From an uncultured bacterium (lineage in GTDB: Bacteria; Cyanobacteriota; Vampirovibrionia; Obscuribacterales; Obscuribacteraceae): a DNA stretch of 38,038 bases. The notes beneath the pieces were generated by a model, which searched no databases, was not told the DNA's origin, and was given only the letters and a program-made list of their open reading frames with translations. The DNA is taken from positions 1-38,038 of the forward strand of contig CAJXZK010000018.1 in NCBI GenBank assembly GCA_913063055.1, given 5' to 3'. The translations under genes and the position numbers were made by a program. Below, piece by piece: positions 10,901 through 30,399 of this stretch (position 1 is its first letter; each line of letters starts with the position of its first letter).

Positions 10901-11350
10901 ATGAAAGAAGCGGTTATAGGATTTGTCATTGCCCTGTTGGTGAGCTGCACGCTCGCCGGCTTCGACAATCCGCTTTCGCCGACAGGTTGGACCTTTGCCA
11001 ACGCTCCGGTGGCTGATGTAGTCACTGACGTCAATGCTGGCACCTTCCAAGGCGAAGTACTCGACTCACAGCTACCAGTGCTCGTTGAGTTCTATAAGCA
11101 AAACGACCCCCACTGCCTGACCATGAGCCCAATCCTCAATAAGCTCGCCACCGACTCCCAAGGCTATGTTCGGGTAGTAAAAGTAGACGTGGATAGCAAC
11201 GAAACCCTAACTGAGCGCTACGATGTGCAAGGGGTACCTGGATACGTCTTATTCAAAGAAGGCAAAGCAATCAACGGTATCAAAGGCGAAATGACCCAGC
11301 CCGAGCTAACCAAGTGGGTCAAGCAAGAATTAGATATGCCAACGGATTAA
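10901..11350 (+). CDS. thioredoxin-fold lipoprotein lacking the redox CxxC
   Basis: The product is 149 residues. A short hydrophobic leader (3-15) ends in LVSC, a good lipobox, so Cys16 may be lipidated. Residues 45-145 follow the thioredoxin fold closely: LPVLVEFY, then PILNKLA, VKVDVDSNETLTERYDVQGVPGYVLFKEG and the C-terminal helix. Where trxA has WCGPC this protein reads NDPHC: the attacking first Cys is Asp and only the second remains. Thiol-disulfide exchange is therefore unlikely; binding or holdase roles are more plausible. ATG 10901 is preceded by GAGG. It opens the operon with the triple-AAA FtsH-like gene and ends 5 bases before the next start. Confidence 0.85.
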   Translation: MKEAVIGFVIALLVSCTLAGFDNPLSPTGWTFANAPVADVVTDVNAGTFQGEVLDSQLPVLVEFYKQNDPHCLTMSPILNKLATDSQGYVRVVKVDVDSNETLTERYDVQGVPGYVLFKEGKAINGIKGEMTQPELTKWVKQELDMPTD

Positions 11351-11355
11351 AAACT

Positions 11356-11613
11356 ATGGTCAAGTACGCTGTCGCCTTCTTTGTGGCGATGATTCTCTCT
11401 TCTACCTTCGTTAACTACAAGTTTCCGCCCAGTCGGATGCCCGCTGGTGTGGCAGATGTAATCAGCTCTAGCCTTGGAGTTTGGAAGCGCAGAGAAGGCT
11501 TGATACCGGAAGTAAAAATTGTCGATTCATATCGCAAACTGCGCTATATCGGCGACGTTAACAACAAAAATGAGAACAGAGATGCTGATGCGCCTGGCAT
11601 GGGCAACAATTAG
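11356..11613 (+). CDS. small single-pass membrane protein
   Basis: The product is 85 residues and is not recognised. Residues 1-17 (VKYAVAFFVAMILSSTFV) form a hydrophobic anchor or uncleaved signal, followed by a proline-containing NYKFPPSRMPAG, a basic WKRREG and an Asn- and Asp-rich tail. It has no cysteines. The ATG lies 5 bases after the preceding stop and the stop lies 15 bases before the triple-AAA gene, so translational coupling and a shared function are likely. A role as a membrane partner of the AAA protease is a guess from position. Confidence 0.75.
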   Translation: MVKYAVAFFVAMILSSTFVNYKFPPSRMPAGVADVISSSLGVWKRREGLIPEVKIVDSYRKLRYIGDVNNKNENRDADAPGMGNN

Positions 11614-11628
11614 GAGAAGCGGAGAATC

Positions 11629-14600
11629 ATGAAAACCTGGGCTCGTTGGACACTACTTATACTCTGGACTGCTGGATTGATTTTCACGGCCCAATACTGG
11701 AACCCGTTTGCATCACTGCCCGCCTTCCTCAAATACTCAGTGATAACCCTAGTGGTGGCCGTTCTTTACGGTGCCTTCTTCATTATCATTCAGTTCTACA
11801 TCATGCTTTCGGTGATCTTCCCGCTCCCTCCTAGAGCTGACAGCAAAGCACCAAAGAGCATTTGGAAGCGTTGGTTCAAATTTCTCTTCAAAGATTCACC
11901 GATCAATCCAAATGCACCAAAGCTACTTAGTGAGCTAACCGGCAATGATAGAGCGAAGCAAGAAATTCGTGAAGTCATCGACATCATTCAAAAAGCGAAG
12001 CATTACGAAGACTCTGGTGCTCAAGTACCAAAGGGAATGCTTTTCATCGGACCTCCTGGGGTAGGCAAGACTCTTTTCGCAAGAGCAATAGCAAATGAAG
12101 CTGGAGTGCCCTTCTATGTTGTAGATGGTGGTGGCATAGCCGGCATCTTCATGGGACTAGGAGTTCTCAAACTAAAAACACTTTTTCGCAAATTGAAGCA
12201 GCATGACCGCGCCATTCTGTTTATCGATGAAATTGATTCCATGGCCACAAGACGGCAGCAAGACAAAGGTTTCGGCGGCGTTGCCGACATGAATATGACC
12301 CTCAATACTTTGCTTACCGAAATGGATGGTTTCTCTGGTTCGAAAATTATGGTTATTGGTGCCACCAATAATGATGCCATGCTCGATCCGGCACTCCTGC
12401 GCGCAGGGCGCATGGATAGACGCATCTACTTCCAAATGCCCAATCCTGATGAGCGCAAAGGTTTATTCCAATATTACGTTTCGAAAGTAAGCAGCGATGA
12501 GAATATTGACTACGACCAAGTATCAATGCTCACTGCTAACTACTCACCAGCTGAAATTGCCAATGTTGTCAACGAAGCTGCCTTGATATCAAGACGGCCA
12601 GGAAATCCAAACAAAGTCGACACCAGCATGATTCTACATGCCTTAGACAAAGTTTCAGTGGGCCTCGAGCGTTCACTTACAAATTCTGGTGTTGAATTAA
12701 TTAGCCATGATCCGACGATCAAATTCGCCGATGTGATTGGTGTAGACGACCTCAAGCAAGAATTGGTTGAAATTGTCGATTTCCTGAAAAAAGGCGATGA
12801 GCTGCGGAAGATTGGGGCCACGATCCCCAAAGGTGTACTACTTGTTGGCCCGCCTGGAGTAGGTAAATCGATGCTGGCAAAGGCAATTGCCAACGAGGCT
12901 GGTGTGCCCTTCTATGGCCTGTCTGCTGGCTACCTAAACAACATCGGGCAGGGTGCTGAACGCATTAAGGCTCTCTACACACAAGCGCGACAGAGCCCAG
13001 CTGCGATTGTTTTCATCGACGAAATCGACGCCATAGGCTCTAATAGGGATGCTGCGGGACAAGCTGATCCACTCGGGCAATCTCGCAACAACTCCATGAA
13101 TCAACTTCTGGTTGAACTCGATGGCCTCGGTCGCAGCAATGTGATCACCATTGGCGCCACCAATATGCAGGACGACTTTGATCCAGCTTTTTACCGTTCT
13201 GGCAGATTTGATCGCAAAGTTTTCATTGGCGTACCCGATGCCGAATCAAGAAGCCTAATATTCGAAAAATATCTAAAACAGATAAGCCTTGCTTCTCTGC
13301 CAGACCTTAAAAAGCTCGGTAAGCTCTCCTTCAACTTCTCGGGTGCCGATATCGCAGCCACCTGCAACGAAGCTGCCATCCTAGCCATTCGTAAAGGCAA
13401 GAGCCAGGTAACTGAGGAAGAATTAGAAGAAGCAATCGATAAAGTAATGGTGACAGCAGGTCACAAGCTCAATGTGGCCGGTATGAATCTCTCTAGGGTA
13501 CCCGATCTAGATGTAAAACTAGATGACCTCAAAGGTGTAGAAGAAGCAAAAGCAGAAGCAGCCGAAGTGGTGGCACTGCTAAAGAACATAAAGCTTGTTG
13601 AGAAAATTGGTCTGAAACCAACTAAAGGCATTCTTCTAGTAGGCCCGCCCGGAACCGGCAAGACCATGCTCGCCAAAGCAATCGCAAATGAGGCTGGCAT
13701 AGCGTTCTACTCGCTTTCTGGTGGCGATTTTCAATCGATGTGGGCTGGTGTAGGCTCAAACCGTGTAAAGGCAGTCTATGAACGGGCACGTCGCAGTGGT
13801 AAGCCAGCTATTGTGTTTATCGATGAAATTGATGCCATTGGCGGCCAGAGAGGTATTGAGCGCGGTGGCGGCGCAGTGCAAGACTCAAACAAAACCCTAA
13901 ACTCTTTGCTCGTGGAAATGGATGGTTTTGGCAAGAACAACATTCTAACAATTGGCGCCACCAACAGCATGCACATGCTGGACGCTGCACTTCTGCGACC
14001 AGGTCGCTTCGATCGTCACATCGACGTGCCTTTGCCGAATCTAGAAGGGCGAGAAGCAATTCTCAACAAATATCTTGAAAAGTTCAAGCTTGCTGCTGAC
14101 GTTCAGACCATGGAAATAGCTCGCATGACCTTTTTACAGGCCGGTGCAGATCTGGCCAACATGGTAAACGAAGCAGGTCTATTTGCCATTCGTGCAGGCA
14201 GAACTGAAATTAACCAATCAGATCTTGTACGCGCAATACAACGCGTAAGCTTTGGCGCTAGCCGAAGTCAACATATCGGTATTAAAGAATTGTTTGAAAC
14301 AGCTTTCCATGAAGCCGGTCATACAATTGTTTCTTACTTCCGCAATCGCAAAGAACGCATCCAAGTGGTAACAATTGTTCCTACTGGCCGCGCTCTTGGC
14401 TATATGTGGTCCGTAGAGAAAGAAGATCGCTTTGTTTCCGGTCAAAATAAACAAGACTACCTCGTCGATATTGAAGTATCGCTAGGCGGTTATGTAGCCG
14501 AGTCGTTGTACATGAACACCACTACCAGTGGTGTGTCCCAGGATCTAATCAACGTGGGCAATACTGCTAGACGCATGGTTAAAAACTGGGGCATGGGCTC

Positions 14601-15057
14601 GTTTGCGTTCAACACCCAACATGCTCATGGCGACGCTCGCGGGCACGGTCAATACGAGGGCTGGGGTACAGCTTCACCCGAAACTGAACGCGAGATAGAG
14701 TTGGAAATTAAGCAAATCGTCGACACTTCACTTGAGAATGTACGCAAACTTCTTCAAGAAAAGCGCAAAGAGCTTGATCTCATTGCTCATGCACTAGTGG
14801 AAAAAGAAACTTTGTTCTACAAAGACTTGGTCAACATTCTTGAACCCGGTAGAAGTGATGCCGATATCAACAGTGAAATCGACACGCTTGCTGAAAGAAA
14901 GCTGGTAGGAACTCCTCCTATAGTCAATCTAGAATTCCTTCCCGGTCTCACGCAAATAGGCCAAGGCAGTGGTCCCAACAATGCTGAAAACAACAGAGTG
15001 ACAGATCTGGTACAGCCAGAAAACAAAGATCCAGAAAACTTCAGACCAGAAAACTAG
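11629..15057 (+). CDS. FtsH-like membrane protease with three AAA modules
   Basis: The product is 1142 residues; ordinary FtsH is about 600-650. Two membrane helices (about 7-23 and 36-64) precede three AAA modules. Each keeps Walker A (GPPGVGKT 141-148, GPPGVGKS 407-414, GPPGTGKT 672-679), Walker B FIDEID (198-203, 462-467, 730-735), sensor-1 IGATN and the arginine-finger GRMDRR or GRFDR. The third is joined to an M41 zinc protease with HEAGH (His894, Glu895, His898) and third ligand Asp972 in SQDLINVGN. Pore-loop aromatics are Phe174 (FMGLG) in module 1 and Trp705 (MWAGVG) in module 3. Module 2 reads NNIGQG without one. AGGAG at 11612 overlaps the previous stop codon. It probably degrades membrane or secreted proteins. 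Confidence 0.93.
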   Translation: MKTWARWTLLILWTAGLIFTAQYWNPFASLPAFLKYSVITLVVAVLYGAFFIIIQFYIMLSVIFPLPPRADSKAPKSIWKRWFKFLFKDSPINPNAPKLLSELTGNDRAKQEIREVIDIIQKAKHYEDSGAQVPKGMLFIGPPGVGKTLFARAIANEAGVPFYVVDGGGIAGIFMGLGVLKLKTLFRKLKQHDRAILFIDEIDSMATRRQQDKGFGGVADMNMTLNTLLTEMDGFSGSKIMVIGATNNDAMLDPALLRAGRMDRRIYFQMPNPDERKGLFQYYVSKVSSDENIDYDQVSMLTANYSPAEIANVVNEAALISRRPGNPNKVDTSMILHALDKVSVGLERSLTNSGVELISHDPTIKFADVIGVDDLKQELVEIVDFLKKGDELRKIGATIPKGVLLVGPPGVGKSMLAKAIANEAGVPFYGLSAGYLNNIGQGAERIKALYTQARQSPAAIVFIDEIDAIGSNRDAAGQADPLGQSRNNSMNQLLVELDGLGRSNVITIGATNMQDDFDPAFYRSGRFDRKVFIGVPDAESRSLIFEKYLKQISLASLPDLKKLGKLSFNFSGADIAATCNEAAILAIRKGKSQVTEEELEEAIDKVMVTAGHKLNVAGMNLSRVPDLDVKLDDLKGVEEAKAEAAEVVALLKNIKLVEKIGLKPTKGILLVGPPGTGKTMLAKAIANEAGIAFYSLSGGDFQSMWAGVGSNRVKAVYERARRSGKPAIVFIDEIDAIGGQRGIERGGGAVQDSNKTLNSLLVEMDGFGKNNILTIGATNSMHMLDAALLRPGRFDRHIDVPLPNLEGREAILNKYLEKFKLAADVQTMEIARMTFLQAGADLANMVNEAGLFAIRAGRTEINQSDLVRAIQRVSFGASRSQHIGIKELFETAFHEAGHTIVSYFRNRKERIQVVTIVPTGRALGYMWSVEKEDRFVSGQNKQDYLVDIEVSLGGYVAESLYMNTTTSGVSQDLINVGNTARRMVKNWGMGSFAFNTQHAHGDARGHGQYEGWGTASPETEREIELEIKQIVDTSLENVRKLLQEKRKELDLIAHALVEKETLFYKDLVNILEPGRSDADINSEIDTLAERKLVGTPPIVNLEFLPGLTQIGQGSGPNNAENNRVTDLVQPENKDPENFRPEN

Positions 15058-15068
15058 AGAGAACAAAA

Positions 15069-16328
15069 TTGTCCGCAAAACTAAGTAGACAAATTGCAAG
15101 AAAGGCAGCCCTCGTGGCTGTCTTTCTTGTTAGCCAAACTGGCCTTATAGCAGTAGGGCCTGACACCTGCATAAAGCCACAAGCAGCCGAAGGCAAAGAC
15201 TTCTCATTTACCGATGTCGCCAATCATCCGGCCAATCCCTACAAGGTCACTTCAGCCGCAGCCTATCCAGCTTTAACCAAGAGCTTTGTTAACGACACCA
15301 CGAGCAAAGCAGACTGGGTAGGTGGAGATGCCGCCTACAGCATTCCACTGAGCCCTAAACGCACCCTATGGCTCTTTGGTGACAGTTTTATTGGTCAAGT
15401 AAAGAACAACAAACGCTCGAACTGTTCAATGGTGCACAACGCCGTGGCAATTGAAGACACTAGTCAAGGCAGCCCAGGAAAATTTACTTATTACTCAGGC
15501 CAGAAGCCAATCAATCAGAAGCCAGAAAATAACGGCTTTTTCAAGTGCCTCGATAAAGGCGATTACTACTGGCCTGCTGACGGCTACATCAGCAATGGCA
15601 AGCTCAACATTTTCCTGCATACGGTGCGCACAGACCTTAAATTACCAGCACCATTTCAATTTGAACTGCGAACAGATCATTTGGCGACCGTAGACAATCC
15701 CCAAGATACACCAGACAAATGGCGTTATAAAATCAAAGCGCTCCATACTAGCGCCAAGCGCACATTGTACGGAGTGGCTTGCCGTGCCGACAACAAGCAT
15801 ATTTACTTCTTCTGCTCTAATGGCAGTGTCGCTCTCGATCTTTTCAAACATCCAACTATAGTGGCTCGTCTTCCTCTGGCAAAGGCCGAACCATTCAACT
15901 TAAACAAACTTGAGTGGTGGTCGCAAAAATGGGAGCCATCCTACGAACTACCGGAAACACTATTCGACGATGGCGCCTCTGAAATGTCAGTAACAAAGGT
16001 TCCAGGCCTGGCTGGCTACTTCGCTTTCTATATTCCACCAGACAAAAAAGCTATCGTCATGCGCCACGCGAACGAGATGCAGGGCCCCTGGAGCGAAAGA
16101 GCCGTGGTTTATCAATTTCCAGCAACCACACCTAGTACATCAGACTGGCTTTATTACAGTGCCAAAGCTCACCCGCAATATTTAACTGATGCGGCAAAAA
16201 ACAAAGGCGAAATAATTTTGACCTACTGCACCAATAGCAGCAACTTCGCCAAACTTACTAGCAATGCCAAACTCTACGTTCCTCAAGCTCTAAAAGTTTC
16301 AATAGCCAAAGCTAGTTTGCATAAATAG
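15069..16328 (+). CDS. secreted DUF4185-like propeller protein
   Basis: The product is 419 residues. A basic leader and hydrophobic core (about 5-30) form a signal peptide. The mature part begins a beta-propeller-like domain with RTLWLFGDSFIG, MVHNAVAIE, DYYWPADGYISNGKLNIFL and GASEMSVTKVPG, the pattern of DUF4185/DUF5005 and related glycosidase-like propellers. Catalytic residues cannot be assigned. The start is a TTG at 15069 with AGAGAG about 6 bases upstream and 11 bases after the triple-AAA stop; no ATG lies before the signal peptide. It seems to be the last gene of that operon. Its end overlaps the convergent protease gene by 17 bases. Sugar binding or hydrolysis is an inference. Confidence 0.75.
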   Translation: MSAKLSRQIARKAALVAVFLVSQTGLIAVGPDTCIKPQAAEGKDFSFTDVANHPANPYKVTSAAAYPALTKSFVNDTTSKADWVGGDAAYSIPLSPKRTLWLFGDSFIGQVKNNKRSNCSMVHNAVAIEDTSQGSPGKFTYYSGQKPINQKPENNGFFKCLDKGDYYWPADGYISNGKLNIFLHTVRTDLKLPAPFQFELRTDHLATVDNPQDTPDKWRYKIKALHTSAKRTLYGVACRADNKHIYFFCSNGSVALDLFKHPTIVARLPLAKAEPFNLNKLEWWSQKWEPSYELPETLFDDGASEMSVTKVPGLAGYFAFYIPPDKKAIVMRHANEMQGPWSERAVVYQFPATTPSTSDWLYYSAKAHPQYLTDAAKNKGEIILTYCTNSSNFAKLTSNAKLYVPQALKVSIAKASLHK

Positions 16329-17271
16329 CTTTCATTGAATTTTTGTCGCGCTCAGACAAGATAGCGGCATAGGGCGGATGGGCCAGGGGGAACATAATAT
16401 CGTGCGGATTGCTGGAATGATTGAGACCCAGGGCATGGCCGACTTCGTGCAAGACACAGGCCTCAAGCTTAACTAAGTTGTAGCGCTCATCCCAAAATAT
16501 TTCGATACGCGACCACTTAACGATATCGTCGCTACTATCATCCCACTGCAATGCGGTCTCACCAGCCTTATCGCCTATTGCACCATGCTTTGAGCCACGC
16601 ATTACTCGCACCAATTTGCAAACTATGTCGGCCGAGCGTTGATCTGAGACTATCTTAAAAGTAGTTTTGCCACCAGAAGCTATTTGCCATCTCTCAAAGG
16701 CCCGCACCACATCTTGACGAAAAGGCTCTTTCAATTCTTTCAACTCAGGATCTGACCAAATCGCTACCCGCAAAGGAAACGCCGTTTTCTTCCAGCCGTG
16801 CTTGTCCGAGAAATCGTTAGAGAAAACATACTGCGGAGAATTAGCATCACCCAGCGAATGATAGTAACTAAGCCTCTCCATCGCCAATTGCACTCGATAT
16901 TGATCAATCTCAGAGACTGGTTGTCGACTGAGTATTTGTTTGTAAACCAAGATAGCATCAGCAAATTTACCAGTGTGCTCATAGACTTCAGCCATGCCAA
17001 AACGGCCTGAGTTACTTTTAGGATTAAGCAAAGTACAAGCCAAGAAATTTTCCTCAGCCTTGCGAAAGCGCCCAGCATCCATCATTGCTCGACCTAATTT
17101 AAAGTGCGCCGAGAAACTATGGGGATCTTCTCGCACAGCTTGTTCCAATTCTTCAGTTGTTTGCCCCGACGCCGCTTGAGTCGGAAGGGCAGTATAAGCC
17201 GAGAGTACAACGAGAACTGAAGCGAGAAAAGAGAATTTTGCTTTTGCTGCATTGATAAATTGACTGATCAT
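16312..17271 (-). CDS. secreted TPR-matrixin-like metalloprotease
   Basis: The product is 319 residues. A signal peptide (1-33, ending TQA) is followed by about 100 residues of TPR repeats (HFKLGRAMMDAGRFRKAEENF, FGMAEVYEHTGKFADAILVY) and a metalloprotease domain (about 165-315). The zinc motif HEVGHALGLNH (His275, Glu276, His279, His285) and the Met-turn IMFP (Met293) mark a metzincin of the matrixin (M10A) type. TPRs before a matrixin domain are unusual; they may hold substrates or partners in the envelope. ATG 17271 begins the signal peptide; the ribosome site is poor. It is preceded by a strong terminator and overlaps the opposing gene at its 3' end. Confidence 0.9.
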   Translation of the reverse strand: MISQFINAAKAKFSFLASVLVVLSAYTALPTQAASGQTTEELEQAVREDPHSFSAHFKLGRAMMDAGRFRKAEENFLACTLLNPKSNSGRFGMAEVYEHTGKFADAILVYKQILSRQPVSEIDQYRVQLAMERLSYYHSLGDANSPQYVFSNDFSDKHGWKKTAFPLRVAIWSDPELKELKEPFRQDVVRAFERWQIASGGKTTFKIVSDQRSADIVCKLVRVMRGSKHGAIGDKAGETALQWDDSSDDIVKWSRIEIFWDERYNLVKLEACVLHEVGHALGLNHSSNPHDIMFPLAHPPYAAILSERDKNSMKAIYAN

Positions 17272-17361: not shown

Positions 17362-20136
17362 CTATCCAATGTTAGGCGTTTCAAAATTCTCCAATGGATT
17401 GCTTCCTTGAACCAGGCGGCGATCTCTGGCAGCTTTCTGTTTAGCTTGATACTCAGCATCAGCCTTGGCTTGAGCAGAAACAGCCGTCACGGCGAAGTCA
17501 TCACCAGGGGAAGGAACATCATTACCAGCTACAACAGGAGCAGCGGCACTGTCAGTAGGAGTGGTAGATGCCTTCAGGTTAGGATTACGGCCTGCCGGTT
17601 CAGCTGGAGCAGGCTCAACCTTGCCCTTAGTGGCATCAACTGGGTTGGGAACCACGGTTGCATCAGCTGGAGTTCCAGCTTTAACTGGATTTCCACTTCC
17701 GTCTTTAACTACATTGCCACTGCCGTCTCTGAGCAAACCATCAGCGGGGGGCGGTTTAACCTCACCTTCGCCACTACGTGTGCCATTAAACAAAGCCGGA
17801 TCGCCTTTGTCTCCAGGAGCTACAGCTTTAGGATCTTTTGCCGCATCAGTTGCCGGTGCAACATCTCCCTCTCCACTACGTTTACCGTCAAACAAAGCAG
17901 GGTCGCCGTTATCGGCAGGCTTAGCAGCAGCCGCTTTTTTCATTTCTTCGACTTTGGCGTCGAATTGCTTGAGCATTTCTTCGGTACGAGCCTTAACAGC
18001 TTCATCTGTCATCACCCGCACTTGGTCACCGGGATGAAGCATCTTGGTTGGGTCAAGACGACCTTCCCAGCCATTGCCCTTAGCCACATGATCAGAAAGT
18101 GCCACCACCAAACTTTCATTTGTATGGCTGCCGTCTTTCTCTTGGCGAAGTACATCACGAGCAATACGGTCCCAACCTTGGCCAGGGCGTACTGTATACA
18201 TAGACCGAGCTTGGAAGTGCTCTGCTGCACTCTTAGCAAAGGCTTCTCTAGTTTTGGCGAGGTCGCCATCAAGCTTGATCTCAGGCATGACCAACTCTGG
18301 AATTGGCTTAGGCGCTTCGAATGGCTTAGCGGCTGGTGCAACTTCTCTTGTCGCAGCTCTTTCTTGACGCTCGGGAGGCGCGGCATTATCTTTCAAAGCG
18401 CGGGTTGTTGGTCTACCGTCGTCTTTCTCGGCTGGTACAGCTGCTCTTTGTCTGCTGCGATCACCAGTTCCGCCCTTGTCATCAAGAGCATTAGGATCAT
18501 TGATTTTGACAGCACCATCAGCTGCTGTTCTATTGTCAGCAGCAGCAACTCGACGCTGAGCTGGCGCTGGTTCGCCCGGATACTCGATCTCAGCTTGTTG
18601 ATCGGCAGCAGAAACAGGTCTGACACCACCTCTATCGGTCACCGCAGCTTGTCTGCGTCCAGCCACATCACCAGTGGCATGGGCAGCGTACATCTGATCA
18701 AGACTGGTGCCTTGCAACTCAGCCATACGCTTCAAATTAAGGTACTGATGAGTCTGTTTTTCGCTGTCGCCATGACCAGTGTGTCGCTCAAATTCACCAC
18801 GCAAGGATACACCAAGAGGTTTATCCCACTGAGTATCTAACAGTTTGGCAGCATCCAAATTGCGCTGGGTGTAGCCTAAATCACCACGGGCTTGGCCCTG
18901 GTCAAAGTTTTCAATAAATTTGCGCACGTCACGACGGGAAATGTCACCATCGGGATTGACACCCCGTTGAATGTCGAGCACAGCGCCTAGAGAAGTTCTT
19001 GGATCACCGTTATTTTGCATGAGAGCATCAATCACAAAGCCCTTCTGGTCAGCTTGGCGCTGAGCCAATTCTTGAGCTTGGGTCTGCTGAACGTCGCGAC
19101 GAACTGGCTGCCTATCAGCTGGAGCATTATCTTGGGCTTGGTCATCAGCCGAAACCGCTCTGACAGCGCTACCATCGCGAACAGGCTGGCCAGAAGCAAC
19201 TCTCCTACCGGTGTTCATATCAGGGCTAACGTTAGCGGCATACAACTGGTCAAGAGTCGTACCCTGCAATTCGGCCATGCGCTTAAGGTCAATACGGTCG
19301 TGGGTGACCATATCGCGGCTACCACCATGACCACCGCCATTATTGCGCTCAAACTGACCACGAAGTGAAACACCCAGAGGAGCATTCCACTGCGAATCTA
19401 AAAGCTTGGCTGCATCTAAATTGGCTTGTGTATAGCCAAGGTCTCCGCGGGCTTTGCCCACTTCAAAGTTGTCCACAAACTTACGAATGTCACGGCGAGA
19501 AATCTCACCATCTGGATTGACGCCTCTTTGAACGTCGAGAACAGCAGCCAGTGAAGTACGGGGATCACCGTCATTCTTCATCAAGGCGCTTACAACATTG
19601 TTTTTCTGATCAAGCTGTCGCTGAGCCAACTCTTGCCTTTGCGCGGCCTCGTGGCTCTCTGTAATAGGCTTTTCACGAGACTCTACTAGCTTTCTAAAAT
19701 TCTTCTGCGAGAATGAATCATCAGCATCTCTGCTACCAATGAACGGCTGGATGCTGTCTGATTTATTGAGGGTTTCATACTGATTCTGCAAACGTTGCAT
19801 CATCGCCCGCTCAAACCCTGACACAGCAGTGGGGTTGCGAGGATTCATCTCTTGTTTGTCGACTTCGCCATCACCAGATGTGTCGAAGCGTCCCATGTTG
19901 TCGCGACTCCAGCGCAGCATGTGGTCATCAATATGGCCAGTTTTTTCTAAACCTGCCGCCACTTTCTTGCCCAGTTCATCAAACTTGGCCGGGTCGTTAG
20001 CATATTTTTTCTGATCTTGAGCAAGCTCAGTCATCAGCGCTTTATAAGCAAACTCTCCACCCTGGGAGAAATCGCTGCCAGCTTTTACTGCCTTTTCAAC
20101 ATCTTTGTTGAATGTATCATCGCCTTTTTGGGCCAT
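17362..20136 (-). CDS. 924-residue EF-hand and LysM repeat protein
   Basis: There is no signal peptide or membrane helix. A helical N-terminal region (1-80) is followed by a canonical EF-hand loop (residues 85-96, DTSGDGEVDKQE). Two long repeats follow, about 168-305 and 355-487, sharing ELAQRQ-DQK, NGDPRTSL-AVLD-QRGVNPDG-ISRRD and GDLGYTQ-NLDAAKLLD. Their NPDGEISRRD segment resembles another EF-hand. A disordered charged linker (490-640), a LysM-like domain (about 645-709, YTVRPGQGWDRIARDVL to LHPGDQVRVM), two short GDPALFNGTRSGEG repeats and a Pro/Ala-rich tail follow. AGAGGA precedes ATG 20136. It may bind calcium and peptidoglycan or chitin, but the export route is not visible. Function unknown. 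Confidence 0.9.
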   Translation of the reverse strand: MAQKGDDTFNKDVEKAVKAGSDFSQGGEFAYKALMTELAQDQKKYANDPAKFDELGKKVAAGLEKTGHIDDHMLRWSRDNMGRFDTSGDGEVDKQEMNPRNPTAVSGFERAMMQRLQNQYETLNKSDSIQPFIGSRDADDSFSQKNFRKLVESREKPITESHEAAQRQELAQRQLDQKNNVVSALMKNDGDPRTSLAAVLDVQRGVNPDGEISRRDIRKFVDNFEVGKARGDLGYTQANLDAAKLLDSQWNAPLGVSLRGQFERNNGGGHGGSRDMVTHDRIDLKRMAELQGTTLDQLYAANVSPDMNTGRRVASGQPVRDGSAVRAVSADDQAQDNAPADRQPVRRDVQQTQAQELAQRQADQKGFVIDALMQNNGDPRTSLGAVLDIQRGVNPDGDISRRDVRKFIENFDQGQARGDLGYTQRNLDAAKLLDTQWDKPLGVSLRGEFERHTGHGDSEKQTHQYLNLKRMAELQGTSLDQMYAAHATGDVAGRRQAAVTDRGGVRPVSAADQQAEIEYPGEPAPAQRRVAAADNRTAADGAVKINDPNALDDKGGTGDRSRQRAAVPAEKDDGRPTTRALKDNAAPPERQERAATREVAPAAKPFEAPKPIPELVMPEIKLDGDLAKTREAFAKSAAEHFQARSMYTVRPGQGWDRIARDVLRQEKDGSHTNESLVVALSDHVAKGNGWEGRLDPTKMLHPGDQVRVMTDEAVKARTEEMLKQFDAKVEEMKKAAAAKPADNGDPALFDGKRSGEGDVAPATDAAKDPKAVAPGDKGDPALFNGTRSGEGEVKPPPADGLLRDGSGNVVKDGSGNPVKAGTPADATVVPNPVDATKGKVEPAPAEPAGRNPNLKASTTPTDSAAAPVVAGNDVPSPGDDFAVTAVSAQAKADAEYQAKQKAARDRRLVQGSNPLENFETPNIG
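18676..19635. repeat. two coding repeats of about 135 residues
   Basis: The segments 19222-19635 and 18676-19074 on the minus strand encode homologous domains with roughly 70 percent identical residues by eye in the core. They mark an internal duplication in the 924-residue protein. Confidence 0.8.
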
Positions 20137-23627: not shown

Positions 23628-23720
23628 TGAAAAACCGCAGAACATTAGGCTTAAACTTAACCATCGTGCGAACCTATGAGTTAAGATAATAAACAAACCT
23701 TGGCGATGGGAATCAAGAAC

Positions 23721-24395
23721 ATGTCTCGCATTTTGGTTGTTGAAGATGAAGATGGACTTTCCGGAGCAATTCAGGAATGGCTTCAAGACGAACACTATGT
23801 TGTGACGGTGGCGAGCGATGGCCTAGAGGCGCTCAAGAAGCTGCGGCATGATTCCTTTGAACTTGTTCTTTTAGACTGGATGCTTCCCAACTTAAGTGGT
23901 CTTGAAATATGTAAAAGATTCAGAGCCACGGGTGGAATCACACCAATTTTGATGATCACAGCGAAGAGTACTCTCTCCGCGAAAGAAGAAGGTTTAGATA
24001 GTGGCGCAGATGATTATCTGACAAAGCCATTTAGCATGAGGGAATTGTCAGCGAGAGTAAGAGCCCTCCTGCGCAGACCAAAGACCAAACCGGAAATGAT
24101 TATAGAAGCAGGAGGCATCCGCCTCGATAGGAAATCACTAAAAGTGACGAAAGGCGATCAGCTCTTGAGACTCCTGCCAAAGGAGTTTATTCTACTGGAA
24201 GTCTTGTTGAAACATAGCGGCACTGTTCTGAGCACAGAGGAGTTGGTAGATCATGTCTGGGGAAGCAATTCAGACATTACACCAGATACGGTGCGCTCAC
24301 ACGTGAAATCGCTGCGCAAAAAAATTGACTCAGAAGGATCGCCATCGCTAATTAAAACTATCCACGGCATGGGCTATAAAATCGAGGCAGACTGA
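23721..24395 (+). CDS. OmpR-family response regulator of the efflux locus
   Basis: This 224-residue cytoplasmic transcription factor starts MSRILVVEDEDG. The receiver domain (1-118) has the acidic pair in VEDED, phospho-acceptor Asp in LLDWMLPN (about 51) and Lys in LTKPFSMREL. The C-terminal winged helix (about 128-222) has RLLPKEFILLEVLL, DTVRSHVKSLRKKI and IHGMGYKIE. I chose ATG 23721 because the receiver begins there and GGGAA lies upstream; in-frame starts at 23700 and 23706 are possible. GATAAT (23685-23690) may be the -10 box, with a phased TGTGCAA box about 60 bases further upstream. The kinase gene starts 2 bases after its stop. It probably controls the TolC-RND operon downstream. 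Confidence 0.92.
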   Translation: MSRILVVEDEDGLSGAIQEWLQDEHYVVTVASDGLEALKKLRHDSFELVLLDWMLPNLSGLEICKRFRATGGITPILMITAKSTLSAKEEGLDSGADDYLTKPFSMRELSARVRALLRRPKTKPEMIIEAGGIRLDRKSLKVTKGDQLLRLLPKEFILLEVLLKHSGTVLSTEELVDHVWGSNSDITPDTVRSHVKSLRKKIDSEGSPSLIKTIHGMGYKIEAD

Positions 24396-24397
24396 GG

Positions 24398-25690
24398 ATG
24401 TTTAGAAACTTTCGCTGGCAAATCGCGACATGGTTCTTCGCCCTATCTTCATTCGTCTACATTGCTTTTTCGATTGCCGGAGGCGCCTATTTCTTCAACA
24501 GCATATCGAACTCCATGGACCACGAACTGCAAGTTGTAGCCTCACAAATAGGTCATGCTATCGACCTAAGCGCCAGCAAGCCAACCTTTCGCGACTGGCT
24601 TAGGGTAGTAGAGACAGAGCCAGCACGTTCCGTAATGGCCATGCAGCTATTCGATAGCAAGGGGCAATTGCTTGAACACTACGGCCCACCAGGAATTCCC
24701 ACGTTGATAACGGACACGAAAGAAGCGACTGGTCACGGCGACACGTATCGCATTCGCTACTGCAAACTTACACACAAAGGCTCTGTAGTCGGATATCTAC
24801 AGCTGCAGCTTTCAACGGCAAAGAGAGCCGAACTAACCAAAGAATTTCTACTAACAATGGCTTACATGGGACCTTTCGTCTTGATCGGCTTTGGCCTCTG
24901 TGGTTATTTTGTCTCAGGTATGGCCGCCAAGCCAATAGAACAACTAGTGGGCACCCTCCAACGACTGGTTGCAGACGCCGGCCACGAACTCAACACACCA
25001 GCCAGCATCGTGCAAGCGCGAGCACAGTCACTCGAGCGAAAACTAGCAAAACACGGTCAAGAAGAGAACGACCTGAAGATTATTGCCAATTCCGCTGAGC
25101 GCATGGGATATATAGTCAAAAACCTCATGCTACTAGCAGAACTCGACAGCAAAGACAACCACTCCAACCACTTGTTCAATCAGAAATCGCAAACCAAATC
25201 AACAACAAACTTAAGACAACAGATAATGACCGTCTTTAGCGACTTCAAAGAACGTTTCAGAGAAAAGAAAATCGAGCTAGAAATTGACACAATTGAAGAT
25301 GCAGTAGTAGGCACGGACAGCCAATCACTCCAATGCATACTAACGAACTTACTAGAAAACGCCCTCAAGTATACCGAGCCGGACGGCAAAGTATCTATCT
25401 CTTGCATACTCTCGGCTGATGAAGCTCGAATCACTGTCAATGATACTGGTATTGGAATCCCGGCAGAGGATCTCAATAAAATCTACGATCGGTTTTATCG
25501 AGTAGACAGGTCTCGCAACCGCTCTTCAGGAGGGGCTGGACTCGGCCTTTCAATTGTCAAAGCGATAGTAGAGCGTGATGGTGGCTCCGTAACTGTCAAA
25601 AGCATTCTTGGCACAGGCAGCCAATTTACAGTGGCTCTACCCATAGACAAGCCCATGACCATTGCACAAAAATTGCACACAAGTTTATAG
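24398..25690 (+). CDS. sensor histidine kinase of the efflux locus
   Basis: The product is 430 residues. Two membrane helices (about 11-34 and 152-172) flank an extracytoplasmic sensor of about 115 residues. Phospho-accepting His196 lies in DAGHELNTP, only some 25 residues after the second helix, so the full HAMP domain is missing and just one linker helix (KPIEQLVGTLQRLVAD) remains. The N box NLLENALKYT, G1 NDTGIGIP, an F box and GAGLGLSI complete the ATPase domain. Asn replaces the common Lys or Arg in HELxTP. The start overlaps closely with the regulator (2-base gap). The last codons contain the phased box preceding the efflux genes. The signal sensed is unknown. Confidence 0.93.
   Translation: MFRNFRWQIATWFFALSSFVYIAFSIAGGAYFFNSISNSMDHELQVVASQIGHAIDLSASKPTFRDWLRVVETEPARSVMAMQLFDSKGQLLEHYGPPGIPTLITDTKEATGHGDTYRIRYCKLTHKGSVVGYLQLQLSTAKRAELTKEFLLTMAYMGPFVLIGFGLCGYFVSGMAAKPIEQLVGTLQRLVADAGHELNTPASIVQARAQSLERKLAKHGQEENDLKIIANSAERMGYIVKNLMLLAELDSKDNHSNHLFNQKSQTKSTTNLRQQIMTVFSDFKERFREKKIELEIDTIEDAVVGTDSQSLQCILTNLLENALKYTEPDGKVSISCILSADEARITVNDTGIGIPAEDLNKIYDRFYRVDRSRNRSSGGAGLGLSIVKAIVERDGGSVTVKSILGTGSQFTVALPIDKPMTIAQKLHTSL
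25661..25679 (-). promoter_or_regulatory. phased TGTGCAA box before the efflux operon
   Basis: On the minus strand this reads TGTGCAA-TTTT-TGTGCAAT, identical but for one base to the box at 23609-23627. It lies inside the last codons of the kinase gene and about 80 bases before the TolC-like start. It is the most likely operator for the efflux genes. Confidence 0.6.
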
Positions 25691-25758
25691 CAGCTTTACT
25701 ACACTAGATTCAATGTAAGTGCTGCTCGAAATCAGCTGTCCATTGCTCCCCGGAGCGG

Positions 25759-27240
25759 GTGAATCCAGTGCGCTCAAAGACAACCAGACAGATTCTAAGC
25801 GCTATTGTTTTGCTAATTTCTCTGCCTAACCAAGCTTTGGGCGAAAGCAACATCAAGCTTAGACCAGAAATACAACTAAACGAAACTTCGCTGACTCTAG
25901 TTGGTGCAGTGCAGCTAGCAGCAAACAAGTATCCCCAAATTCTCAAGCAGCAAGCAGAGTTAGAGGCAGCCAAACGCAATGTTACACTGCAAAAAGTAAA
26001 AGAGTACAATCCAACAGCCCTACTTTCATACCAACAAGTAGACGCAACACACAATCGCTTGACTCAAACTCTCTTCGGCTCCGCTGTTCTTCCGACGACT
26101 CCGGGTCCGGGGCCAGACAATGTCAGATTTGGTGCTGACGCTTTTAGCGCAGCAGGCTTCATTATTGACTGGGCGCCAATTGATTTCGGTTTACACAAAG
26201 CGCGCATCAATTACTCGAAAGCAGAGATGCATTTCGCATCCGCCAACTATGACCTTACAGTCCTAGATGTGACAGTACAAGCAGCGGCGACCTTCCTAGA
26301 TGCCTTGATAATGAAAGAGCAAGTCGGAGTAGCCATTGCTAACGTGCAACGTTTCGCCGACTTTAGCAAAGTAGTTCACGCCCAAGTAGACGCTGGCTTA
26401 AAGGCAGGAGCAGACGCTTCCTTAGCAGACTCACAGCTGGCCAATGCAAAAAATGACCTAATTCGAGCTCGACTAAACTACGAACTAGCTTTAGCAGAAC
26501 TAGCATTTAGAGTGGGCATAGGCGGGACCAGTATTGAGATCAATCCAGGCGGCATTAGCAAATTGACTCAACCGGATGACCCACAAAAGACCGCACCAAC
26601 ATTTACGAATCATCCTCTCACCCTTGCGAAACAGTCACTAGTAAATGTCAGAATGGCAAATCGCAAAATATTGGAAAAAGAATACTATCCAAAATTTCGT
26701 TGGCTCGGCGGAGTTAACTTGAGAGGCACGACCTTCAAAACGAATAGAGGAGACGTAGAAGCACCAGGCATCAGCGGCCTCTTTCCCACTATTCCCAACT
26801 GGAATGTTGGCTTAGTTATCGATTTTCCCTTCTTCGAAATAATACGAATTCAGGCAGAGAAAAAGGTAGTCGACCAACAAATAAATTCAGCTCAACAGTC
26901 GTACGCCCTAGCACTGCAGCAGCTCAAAGCAGAAGACGTACAGGCCAGAGCTAGGGTGAAAGCCTCTCTTGAACTGGCGGCCAATATGCCTATTCAGGTA
27001 GAAGCAGCAAATCTTGCAGCACAGCAAGCTCAGGCGCGCTACCAAGCTGGGTTAGCGACAGTGGCACAGGTCGCAGAAGCCAATCAGATATTGGCAGATT
27101 CAAGGGTCAAAGAAGCAGTAACAAATGTCGGAGTGTGGAAAGCGCTACTTGCCAACGCCGCTGTGCACGGCAATCTCAAGCCCTTTTTAGGGGCCGCCGC
27201 TCAAGCTACAAACAGTATGTACAAAACAGGAACTGAATAG
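25759..27240 (+). CDS. TolC-like outer membrane efflux protein
   Basis: The product is 493 residues. A signal peptide (about 1-30, LSAIVLLISLPNQALG) precedes two OEP repeats with long amphipathic helices: VQLAANKYPQILKQQAELEAAKR, YSKAEMHFASANYDLTVLDVTVQAAATFLDALI, and in the second half AQQSYALALQQLKAEDVQARARVKAS and ARYQAGLATVAQVAEANQILADSRVKEA. The pattern and length match TolC/CusC outer-membrane channels. It carries no lipobox. The start is a GTG (25759 or 25768), with GGAG/GGGTG nearby; which is used is uncertain. Its stop directly abuts the RND start. It is the first gene of the efflux operon, where it is more often last. Confidence 0.9.
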   Translation: MNPVRSKTTRQILSAIVLLISLPNQALGESNIKLRPEIQLNETSLTLVGAVQLAANKYPQILKQQAELEAAKRNVTLQKVKEYNPTALLSYQQVDATHNRLTQTLFGSAVLPTTPGPGPDNVRFGADAFSAAGFIIDWAPIDFGLHKARINYSKAEMHFASANYDLTVLDVTVQAAATFLDALIMKEQVGVAIANVQRFADFSKVVHAQVDAGLKAGADASLADSQLANAKNDLIRARLNYELALAELAFRVGIGGTSIEINPGGISKLTQPDDPQKTAPTFTNHPLTLAKQSLVNVRMANRKILEKEYYPKFRWLGGVNLRGTTFKTNRGDVEAPGISGLFPTIPNWNVGLVIDFPFFEIIRIQAEKKVVDQQINSAQQSYALALQQLKAEDVQARARVKASLELAANMPIQVEAANLAAQQAQARYQAGLATVAQVAEANQILADSRVKEAVTNVGVWKALLANAAVHGNLKPFLGAAAQATNSMYKTGTE

Positions 27241-30200
27241 ATGTGGCTAATCAAGCTAGCCATGGGTCGACCGATCACTATCATGGTCTTCGTCATCACG
27301 GCATTAATAGCGGCAGTTCTTGCTGTCAAAGGCATGAAGGTTGACATTTTCCCCAACCTAAATATGCCAGTAATCTACGTAATTCAGCCTTACGGCGGAA
27401 TGGACCCCGCCCAATTTGAGGCCTTCGTTGTCGCCCACTACGAGAATCACTTTCTTTACGTCTCTGGGGTAGACCACATTGAGTCTAAGGCAATCCAAAA
27501 TACCGCGGTATTAAAAGTGGTGTTCAAAGCCGATACAGATATGGCTGAAGCCATGTCTAACATTGTGGCTCAGGTCGAGCGCTCTCGAGCAAAAATGCCA
27601 CCGGGAACGGTTACACCATTCATTCTCCGCTTCGACGCTGGCAACGTGCCAGTCGGCTATGTGGTCTTAGCTAGCAAGACTGAACCAGTAAGCAAAATAG
27701 AAGCCATTGCCGATGAGCGTATCAGACCAATCATATCAACAATACCAGGCGCAACTACGACCCATCCATTTGGTGGCAACGTCCGTACCATTGTCATCAC
27801 AGTCAATCCTCAGCGCCTAAGGGCCTTGCACCTTAGTTCAGAAGAGGTAGTCAATGCGGTAACTAGCGGCAATATGATTACACCTTCAGGTTTGGTGAGA
27901 TCGGGTGACACACAAAGAATAGCTAATCTCAATTCGACGGTATTAGACATTCATCAACTCGAAAAAATCCCACTTAAATTAGGTCCAGGGGCTAGTCTCA
28001 CCCTCGGTGATATTGCCACGGTAGTTGACGATATGGATATCGCCACTGGCTACGCCCTAGTAGACGGCAGAAGAACTGTGTTTATGACTATTTCAAAGCT
28101 CGCTGACGCATCTACTCTTGACGTGGTGCAACGAGTCAAAGCGGCTCTACCGCAGATGAGAGCAGTCATTCCTAAAGACATCAGCGTAAGCTTTGACTTT
28201 GATCAATCTATTTATGTTACGGAAGCGATCACGGGGCTAGTATATGAAAGCCTAATTGGTGCTCTTCTCACTGGCGGCGTAGTGCTGCTATTTCTGCAAG
28301 ATATTCGCAGTGCCTTAATTGTCGTAGTGACAATTCCAATTGCATTAGCCATCGCAATAGTAGGACTGTTCGGCGCCGGTCAAACAATTAACATCATGAC
28401 TCTAGGTGGGCTATCACTGGCCGTAGGCGTCTTAGTGGACGAAGCTACGGTGGCAATAGAAAACATCCACACTCATCTTGACCGAGGCGAATTACTCTTT
28501 AAGGGAATAGCCGATGCCAGCTGCGAAGTAATCACGCCACAACTACTGGCGGTGCTGTCAGTCATTGCGGTATTCCTGCCGTCATTCTTTATGGAAGGCA
28601 CCACCAAAGCGCTTTTCGTACCGCTTTCCCTGGCAGTTGGCTTTGCCATGGTGGCTTCATACGTTCTATCTAATACCCTAGTGCCCGTGCTCTCTGGCTG
28701 GCTTCTGCACACAAGTAAAACAGGTAAACACCAGAAGAATATTATAGCCACAACTATTATAAAAATCCGTCGGCAATACGCCCACACCTTAGTGCGTCTA
28801 TTTAGATGGCGGGCGCTCTTGCTGGCGGCCTATTTAATTGCCACCCCGCTAATTCTTTTGGTGGTGGGCCCACAACTTAAGACAGAAGTCTTCCCTGCGG
28901 GCAACCCATCGAGTTTTCAGCTGCGACTGCTGGCACCAGTCGGTACGCGCATAGAGCTAACAGAACGCTATACGAAGAGAATGCTCGATATCATACAAAA
29001 GGAAGCTGGTCCAGACAATGTAGAAATTTCAATCTGCTATGTTGGTACTCAACCCCCTAATTTCGCAGTCAGCAATGTCTACATCTGGACCTGCGGTCCA
29101 CAAGAAGCACTGCTGCTAGTGTCGTTAAAGCATGGGGCAAAGATCAAGCTTAGCGACTTCAAAGAGCGATTACGCCGAGAAGCCACCAAAGAGATACCGC
29201 AGATTGCCCTTTCGTTTGAGTCGGGCGACATCGTCAATAAAATCATGAACTTGGGCGCACCAACACCAATTCAGATAGACATCACGGGTTCAAGCCTGAG
29301 CCAAGACCAAGAATATGCCAACAAAATCTTAAATGAACTAAAGCATGTGGCCGCAATTCGAGATGCCATGATTGTGCAACCATTGGCCTATCCCACCATC
29401 GATGTCACCGTTGACAGGACTCGCGCAGGGCAACTAGGTCTTACCACTGCTGACGTTAGTAAAGCTCTTGTGCCAGCGGTCTACTCAAGTAGGTTCCTTC
29501 GTCAAATCTGGTGGCGCGACCCTCACCACGGCCATTCTTACCAGGTTCAAGTGCAGTATCCTGCAGCGAATATGGAGTCAATAAAAGACGTTGAAATGAT
29601 TCCAATAAGAAGTGGAGACGCTGATAGCCCGCGCCTTGGTGACGTAGCTCAAGTAAACTTCGGCACAATGGTGGGAGAATACGACCGCTATAATTTAAGA
29701 CGGATGCTCAGCATCACAGCAAACATTGCCAATGACGACCTCGGTAACGCTGCTCGCGAAGTGAACAAAGCAATAAGCAGAGCAGGTAAACCTCCCCGTG
29801 GCCTAAACGTTGATGTTAGAGGGCAGGTACCGATTCTAAAAAGCACAATGGCCGGCCTCGGCAACGGCCTAGCGCTGGCTGTAATAGCAATTTTGCTTAT
29901 GCTGATTGCCTACTTCCAACGAGTGAAATTGGCCCTAGTGGTGATGTCAGTCATACCAGCAATTTTGCTAGGCGTAGCCCTGAGCATAAAGTTCACAGCC
30001 GTGACTCTGAATGTACAGTCATTTATGGGCACAATTATGGCCGTAGGCATCGGCATAGCCAACGCCATCTTGATCGTTTCCTTCTCTGAATCGAGAAGGC
30101 AAAGCGGCCAGCCATCTGGCTCAGCGGCGGTACGTGGCGCCGCAAGTAGATTGCGACCAGTACTAATGACTAGTATCGCCATGATCGCTGGTATGGCGCC

Positions 30201-30399
30201 AATGGCGTTAGGCCTGGCTGAAGGTGGTGAACGCACAGCGCCACTAGGCGTTGCTGTCATCGGCGGTCTTACTTTCTCATTAGTAGCGGTGCTTTTCTTA
30301 CTACCGGTGATTTTCTCGATGGTACAAAACACAGCATCAAGAAAAGTTCCGAGCATGCTCTTCGACGAAGAGCAATTACAGAAGGGAACATTAGAATGA
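27241..30399 (+). CDS. RND-family efflux transporter
   Basis: This is a 1052-residue inner-membrane proton antiporter of the AcrB/CusA superfamily with the usual 12 helices and two periplasmic loops. The first helix is at about 11-30, and helices 2-6 are near 335-480. The TM4 motif GGLSLAVGVLVDEATVAIEN places Asp400 and Glu401 at the AcrB Asp407-Asp408 position, so the second Asp is Glu. The second half repeats the fold (helices near 875-1030). The substrate cannot be read from sequence; the TM4 pattern is neither classic multidrug nor classic metal type. The start directly follows the TolC stop, and the stop overlaps the adaptor start by 4 bases (ATGA). Confidence 0.95.
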   Translation: MWLIKLAMGRPITIMVFVITALIAAVLAVKGMKVDIFPNLNMPVIYVIQPYGGMDPAQFEAFVVAHYENHFLYVSGVDHIESKAIQNTAVLKVVFKADTDMAEAMSNIVAQVERSRAKMPPGTVTPFILRFDAGNVPVGYVVLASKTEPVSKIEAIADERIRPIISTIPGATTTHPFGGNVRTIVITVNPQRLRALHLSSEEVVNAVTSGNMITPSGLVRSGDTQRIANLNSTVLDIHQLEKIPLKLGPGASLTLGDIATVVDDMDIATGYALVDGRRTVFMTISKLADASTLDVVQRVKAALPQMRAVIPKDISVSFDFDQSIYVTEAITGLVYESLIGALLTGGVVLLFLQDIRSALIVVVTIPIALAIAIVGLFGAGQTINIMTLGGLSLAVGVLVDEATVAIENIHTHLDRGELLFKGIADASCEVITPQLLAVLSVIAVFLPSFFMEGTTKALFVPLSLAVGFAMVASYVLSNTLVPVLSGWLLHTSKTGKHQKNIIATTIIKIRRQYAHTLVRLFRWRALLLAAYLIATPLILLVVGPQLKTEVFPAGNPSSFQLRLLAPVGTRIELTERYTKRMLDIIQKEAGPDNVEISICYVGTQPPNFAVSNVYIWTCGPQEALLLVSLKHGAKIKLSDFKERLRREATKEIPQIALSFESGDIVNKIMNLGAPTPIQIDITGSSLSQDQEYANKILNELKHVAAIRDAMIVQPLAYPTIDVTVDRTRAGQLGLTTADVSKALVPAVYSSRFLRQIWWRDPHHGHSYQVQVQYPAANMESIKDVEMIPIRSGDADSPRLGDVAQVNFGTMVGEYDRYNLRRMLSITANIANDDLGNAAREVNKAISRAGKPPRGLNVDVRGQVPILKSTMAGLGNGLALAVIAILLMLIAYFQRVKLALVVMSVIPAILLGVALSIKFTAVTLNVQSFMGTIMAVGIGIANAILIVSFSESRRQSGQPSGSAAVRGAASRLRPVLMTSIAMIAGMAPMALGLAEGGERTAPLGVAVIGGLTFSLVAVLFLLPVIFSMVQNTASRKVPSMLFDEEQLQKGTLE

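Follow-up and report, generated by a model that had tools for sequence, protein, structure and literature searches.

Analysis of a 38,038-nucleotide stretch of DNA (the window) from an uncultured bacterium of the family Obscuribacteraceae (Cyanobacteriota, order Obscuribacterales; assembly GCA_913063055.1, contig CAJXZK010000018.1) demonstrated that it encodes an FtsH-type membrane protease in which three AAA modules precede a single C-terminal M41 peptidase domain. The gene (11629..15057, plus strand) is one open frame of 1142 aa that begins with ATG and has a GGAG element just 5′ of it; orthologues of the whole chain exist in related genomes. Both its core and its ancestry place the chain in the FtsH superfamily, but it departs from the family in having three AAA modules instead of one per subunit and in lacking a periplasmic domain, and judged by sequence it is an undescribed FtsH variant.

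Pfam analysis of the chain identified three AAA stretches (PF00004, 376 bits), three AAA_lid_3 stretches, and one Peptidase_M41 domain (147 bits), with scores too high for chance matches. Walker A, Walker B, sensor 1, and an arginine-finger box of the form RxxGRxxR were all found in each module. Module 1 (aa 97–350; 11917..12678, plus strand, as are all features of the chain) carries GPPGVGKT, LFIDEID, GATNN, and RAGRMDRR; module 2 (aa 363–610; 12715..13458) carries GPPGVGKS, VFIDEID, GATNM, and RSGRFDRK; and module 3 (aa 628–875; 13510..14253) carries GPPGTGKT, VFIDEID, GATNS, and RPGRFDRH. The M41 domain (aa 890–1069; 14296..14835) contains the zinc-protease motif HEAGH (aa 894–898; 14308..14322), and Asp972 occupies the third zinc-ligand position. 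The core feature of the FtsH family, an AAA module directly before an M41 domain that contains HEXXH and, farther on, an Asp ligand, is present. Against the NCBIfam profile TIGR01241 (FtsH), the whole protein scored 992 bits (cut-off, 600), a sum inflated by the three AAA stretches; the best stretch alone (aa 628–1066) spans profile positions 158 to 597/598, which correspond to the AAA and M41 part of the model. The Cdc48-type profile TIGR01243 gave 557 bits, under its cut-off of 803. An earlier note, drawn from the letters of the window alone, had read three AAA modules and one M41 domain in this chain, had contrasted it with one-AAA FtsH and two-AAA Cdc48, and had called for a domain search; the Pfam and motif results bear out both the reading and the contrast.

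The same note had described two N-terminal membrane helices, of which the second is well supported. Helix 2 (approximately aa 36–65; 11734..11823) reaches a hydropathy of 2.55, as expected of a strong transmembrane helix, and was modeled as helix at aa 29–63 by AlphaFold2 (AF2). The aromatic-rich helix 1 (approximately aa 7–23; 11647..11697) is only a probable membrane helix; its hydropathy falls under the cut-off of 1.6, but it is helical by prediction (AF2, aa 2–22) and conserved in orthologues. The N-terminal membrane anchor of the FtsH family is present in this form, and a basic cytoplasmic stretch with seven Lys or Arg residues within aa 66–97 follows helix 2. Most FtsHs have a periplasmic domain between the two helices. 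Here, the joining loop has only about 13 residues, indicating that the usual periplasmic domain is missing, and no such domain was among the Pfam matches listed.

The distribution of the chain was surveyed in Cyanobacteriota, with 53 genomes of the Obscuribacterales and 385 from other orders of the class and other classes. A full-length collinear chain with 60–90% identity was found in 42 of the 53 genomes, and pieces of it, mostly at contig ends, were found in eight more, so that full or partial orthologues are present in 50. One orthologue (G441:C401:2237-5576) is broken into two adjacent frames at approximately aa 770 by a frameshift or a sequencing error. The chain was absent from three genomes of the order, G010 (90% complete), G017 (87%), and G033 (66%), although G034 and G440, from the same genus as G017, carry it. 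None of the 385 further genomes encoded it, and the best matches there were single-AAA FtsHs covering module 3 and M41. A separate scan with short close-relative patterns returned full-length relatives at the genus level only and is uninformative on absence elsewhere. In plasmid and phage collections, the best matches listed were single-AAA ftsH genes of approximately 1.4 kb, with several segments of the query hitting the same gene.

The window (contig C18) belongs to a 5.7-Mb genome in 395 contigs with several additional ftsH genes, among them a tandem pair on contig C41, and these circumstances would favor an assembly error, such as collapsed tandem ftsH genes or a chimera of neighboring genes. 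Mis-assembly and collapsed ftsH genes had also been named in the earlier note as findings that would overturn its observation. However, the same chain recurs as a single open frame in 42 genomes of the order, which come from different assemblies, and each module matches its own orthologues and falls in a separate, old clade. The recurrence of the full chain excludes mis-assembly, the probability of an artefact is in our view negligible, and the observation is real. Besides the match in the triple-AAA chain, the window's genome (G000) has six more M41 matches, on contigs C200, C41 (two in tandem), C134, C121, and C269 (L001 and L003–L007), and thus a large set of FtsH paralogues.

Conservation was determined in 41 full-length orthologues selected for HEAGH and for three or more DE[IVL][DE] words, so that the invariance of HEAGH and, in part, of Walker B is given by construction in this set. 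The Gly-Lys of Walker A, the Asp-Glu of Walker B, and the Asn of sensor 1 were invariant in modules 1–3 (41/41). The first two arginines of the finger box showed no variation in any module, and the last was also invariant except for one Arg-to-Lys change in module 3. HEAGH and Asp972 were conserved; one chain left out of the set (L156) has HESGH, yet all three of its Walker A/B pairs are intact. Modules 1 and 3 each had a mean identity of 73% to the window, compared with 66% in module 2 and 59% in M41, suggesting that constraint on the extra modules is no weaker than that on the protease. In every ATPase-module comparison with unsaturated dS, the pairwise dN/dS was below 0.07, and by these measures, the ATPase modules are under strongly purifying selection. 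The possibility that the extra modules are degenerate or dead was therefore rejected, given the invariant ATP-site residues and the low dN/dS.

In FtsH, an aromatic-x-Gly (Phi-x-G) pore loop is required for substrate unfolding, and in eukaryotic Cdc48, D1 lacks an aromatic pore residue and D2 uses Trp (PMC5511170). The pore loop of module 3 was W-x-G in all 41 orthologues, including the window. In module 1, the loop was I-x-G in 28 and F-x-G in 13 (F-M-G in the window). In module 2, it was aromatic in approximately 25 and short or non-aromatic in approximately 16, having been lost repeatedly through shortenings of 2–4 residues in several lineages, the genus of the window included; the window's own loop is two residues shorter, and its first Phi-x-G position is non-aromatic. 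Residue invariance at the ATP sites, set against the variation of the pore loops, indicates that the ATP sites are strict in all modules and the predicted grip is strict in module 3 only. Since only module 3 keeps an invariant aromatic loop, it is unlikely that rings 1 and 2 simply repeat the same gripping motor. The earlier proposal of stronger unfolding by three rings has to be qualified accordingly: the ATP sites are intact throughout, but an invariant aromatic pore loop is found in module 3 alone.

Arginine fingers in AAA proteins imply ring assembly with trans-acting sites. The spacing from Walker A to Walker A is approximately 266 and 261–265 residues along the chain, compared with 273 in a tandem of the Cdc48 type from the same bacterial family, and modules 2 and 3 align in a single stretch with D1–D2 of a VCP-like ATPase (5vc7; E value, 4.6e-91). 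Module 3 and M41 align with FtsH (7zbh; E value, 9.7e-104), and in 40 of 41 orthologues, HEAGH lies 222 residues after the Walker A of module 3, as in canonical FtsH. Because the arginine fingers are kept in all modules and the spacing is Cdc48-like, the most natural reading is that three ATPase rings would be stacked above a protease ring, module 1 being the closest to the membrane. The three-ring hexamer suggested in the earlier note agrees with these two features; the stacking itself is predicted.

Two trees were built from single AAA modules. Modules 1, 2, and 3 formed three separate clades (support 100/99/100 in the first tree and 100/100 for each in the second), and each clade includes both Obscuribacterales families, indicating that the triple form predates the radiation of the order. 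Modules 1–3 and single-AAA FtsHs with a short N-terminus (L125 and L150–L153) together formed one clade (SH-like approximate likelihood ratio test, 100 in the first tree; support 98/97 in the second), and D1 and D2 of Cdc48-type proteins from the same bacterial family fall outside it. Placement of the AAA modules with FtsH was obtained in both trees, and the phylogeny called for in the earlier note thus gave three old clades, all of the FtsH type. These results bear on a possible fusion, in which two modules of Cdc48 origin would have been set in front of an ordinary FtsH. The PDB matches are dominated by Cdc48 sequences, and the MW-x-G pore of module 3 recalls the Trp of Cdc48 D2, as such a fusion would predict, but both trees put all three modules with the short-N-terminus FtsHs and leave Cdc48-like D1/D2 outside, and no Cdc48 N domain was among the Pfam matches listed. 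A Cdc48–FtsH fusion was rejected on tree placement, and we consider it very improbable. The grouping with short-N-terminus FtsHs and not with Cdc48 suggests that the modules arose by duplication of an FtsH motor, and the simplest reading of their origin is that an FtsH with a reduced N-terminus had its AAA module duplicated in tandem. The ATPase module would then have been duplicated twice in tandem before the Obscuribacterales diversified. The trees give no firm branching order among modules 1–3 and the single-AAA relatives, and for this reason, the joining of two closely related FtsHs may be an alternative origin.

The short-N-terminus single-AAA FtsHs, which are the nearest relatives of the modules, come from other Cyanobacteriota families (G071, G076, G096, G099, and G108) and share 43–46% identity with module 3 and M41, with one AAA module per chain. 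At L125, L150, L152, and L153, the short N-terminus has a single membrane helix and lacks a periplasmic domain. Frames of 1002 aa and 800 aa at L122/L150 and L124/L151 had the look of longer FtsHs, but the frame of L150 is over-extended around a single-AAA FtsH, and L151 carries a single set of AAA motifs. A double-AAA FtsH (AAA-AAA-M41; approximately 1040 aa) was observed in only two of the 53 genomes of the order (L119:5256-8369, minus strand, in G034 and L149:1477-4608, minus strand, in G443). It has a long exoplasmic domain, a divergent Walker A in its first module (GPGGLGKT), and a separate tree branch, and its extra AAA module appears to have arisen by an independent duplication.

Two genes are tightly packed on the same strand 5′ of the protease gene. 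The first encodes a membrane-anchored thioredoxin-fold protein (10901..11350, plus strand; PF00085, 72 bits), and the second, which adjoins the protease gene, encodes an 85-aa single-transmembrane protein (11356..11613, plus strand) with no Pfam match. A profile of the small protein, built from 28 sequences, found a match upstream of all 40 analyzed orthologues with upstream sequence, including 12 loci outside the training set (E values, 3.7e-25 to 1.8e-6), and none in control loci of Gastranaerophilales and related genomes. The approximately 85-aa single-transmembrane protein is an undescribed family. Its profile also weakly matches the N-terminal anchors of the thioredoxin-fold proteins, a resemblance that suggests a shared origin or recognition signal. 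Of 30 loci, 29 have a same-strand thioredoxin gene upstream, in a few cases farther off, and the two genes before the protease gene are a conserved operon. The CxxC motif is kept in most thioredoxin-fold orthologues (CGPC or CxxC in other genera), but its first Cys is missing in the window (NDPHC) and in the window's genus, and the motif is lost in a few others. A simple reductase role throughout is therefore unlikely, and the case for an obligate reductase partner is weakened.

From these sequence-level facts, we infer the assembly, stacking, threading order, and partner roles of a membrane-anchored homohexameric unfoldase-protease, a mechanism that we favor with some confidence. In this mechanism, three stacked ATPase rings would stand on the cytoplasmic side, with module 3 resting on the ring of protease domains. 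A membrane or membrane-delivered substrate would enter ring 1 and then ring 2, and the Trp loops of ring 3 would grip it and drive it into the M41 chamber. Rings 1 and 2 would hydrolyze ATP and grip weakly, assisting as pre-unfolding, gating, or anti-slip rings, in a division of labor comparable to that of the non-aromatic D1 pore and Trp-bearing D2 pore of eukaryotic Cdc48. The two small membrane-anchored proteins encoded upstream would be probable partners, acting as adaptors, regulators, or substrate presenters. Several points weigh against this mechanism. The loss of aromatic pore residues in modules 1 and 2 argues against three equivalent translocating motors, and the homohexameric state is assumed from the family. 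Moreover, the AF2 monomer model is poor, with a mean predicted local distance difference test score of 54 (below 50 in the M41 region) and a predicted template modeling score of 0.32 from a 22-row alignment, and ring stacking gains no support from modeling.

The main rival, a somewhat unlikely but credible one, is that modules 1 and 2 build rings that are driven by ATP but serve regulation or structure, off the path of the threaded chain, and that would stabilize the hexamer, set its distance from the membrane, or bind partner proteins, and that only module 3 and M41 are a working FtsH. The relaxed pore loops of modules 1 and 2 beside the strict one of module 3, together with the canonical spacing from module 3 to M41, are consistent with this. 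Purely structural rings would nevertheless be expected to lose some ATP-site residues, whereas the hydrolysis residues and arginine fingers of modules 1 and 2 are invariant in 41 chains, and the inter-subunit signaling motif DGF is retained in module 1. It is also conceivable, though we think it quite improbable, that the protein is mainly a membrane-protein dislocase or chaperone working with the thioredoxin-fold and small transmembrane proteins and that proteolysis is secondary. The conserved two-gene set of membrane-anchored partners and the better conservation of modules 1 and 3 than of M41 point in this direction, but the protease residues HEAGH (HESGH in the one excluded orthologue) and Asp972 are conserved, and the loss of CxxC speaks against a simple reductase role in such a complex. 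More speculatively, the favored unfoldase-protease could be a retrotranslocation machine that, with the thioredoxin-fold and small transmembrane partners, draws structured proteins of the envelope back across the membrane with a three-stage motor, rings 1 and 2 pre-unfolding and holding the substrate and ring 3 gripping and degrading it. We regard this extension as improbable; if true, the machine would be a single-chain analogue of the eukaryotic Cdc48-plus-protease pathway.

Compared with FtsH and the m- and i-AAA proteases (TIGR01241; M41), module 3 and M41 align end to end with FtsH cytosolic structures and share the HEXXH and Asp ligands, the 222-residue spacing, and the N-terminal membrane anchor. 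Unlike these proteases, the chain has three AAA modules and no periplasmic domain, and its last pore loop is W-x-G instead of the F-V-G of FtsH. With Cdc48/p97, the archaeal VCP-like ATPase, and NSF (type II AAA proteins), it shares tandem classical AAA modules of similar spacing, and its pore-loop pattern would fit weak-grip upstream rings and a Trp-bearing last ring, as in eukaryotic Cdc48. It differs from all of them in its third module, built-in protease, membrane anchor, and FtsH-type phylogeny; with three FtsH-clade modules and no N domain among the Pfam matches listed, it does not belong to Cdc48/p97.

One AAA module is the common FtsH topology in a general review, which describes FtsH-like proteases as one AAA ring with one protease ring and multi-ring machines, such as Cdc48 and ClpA/B/C, as two-ring (PMC7226402). 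SpoVK is called a “functional triple AAA+ protein” by its authors (PMC10659427); it is a member of the SpoVK/CbbX clade, sister to FtsH, and a chaperone of MurG, and the likeness lies in the authors’ “triple AAA+” wording. A review of FtsH evolution contains no passage that uses tandem, fusion, or single AAA. The open-access literature yielded no description of a triple-AAA FtsH, with subscription papers and annotation databases outside the search, and the earlier statement that no family of this form had been described held to that extent.

Other neighbors of the protease gene are less constant than the thioredoxin gene. A DUF4185 protein is encoded 11 nt downstream (15069..16328, plus strand) and is a neighbor in only 13 of 30 loci, and a fasciclin gene is a neighbor in 17 of 30. 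Elsewhere in the window are genes for a TPR protein with a C-terminal matrixin-like (M10) metallopeptidase domain (16312–17271, minus strand) and for a 924-aa protein with no Pfam family above the cut-off (17362–20136, minus strand), the latter found in same-genus loci only. Farther along (23700–31676, plus strand), genes for a response regulator, a histidine kinase, an outer-membrane efflux protein, an AcrB-type transporter, and an HlyD adaptor stand in a row and are probably a regulated RND efflux operon.

Taken together, an order of non-photosynthetic cyanobacterial relatives carries a membrane protease whose motor is present three times per chain, each time chemically intact. All eighteen ATP sites of the presumed hexamer are intact, yet only one ring appears to be required to grip. 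A three-ring version maintained in a whole order would allow the purpose of extra rings to be tested, whether force, processivity, gating, or regulation, and since other lineages of the phylum still carry the closest single-ring relatives, the comparison could be made both by evolution and by domain deletion. The conserved genes upstream further point to a new pair of partner proteins for a membrane protease.

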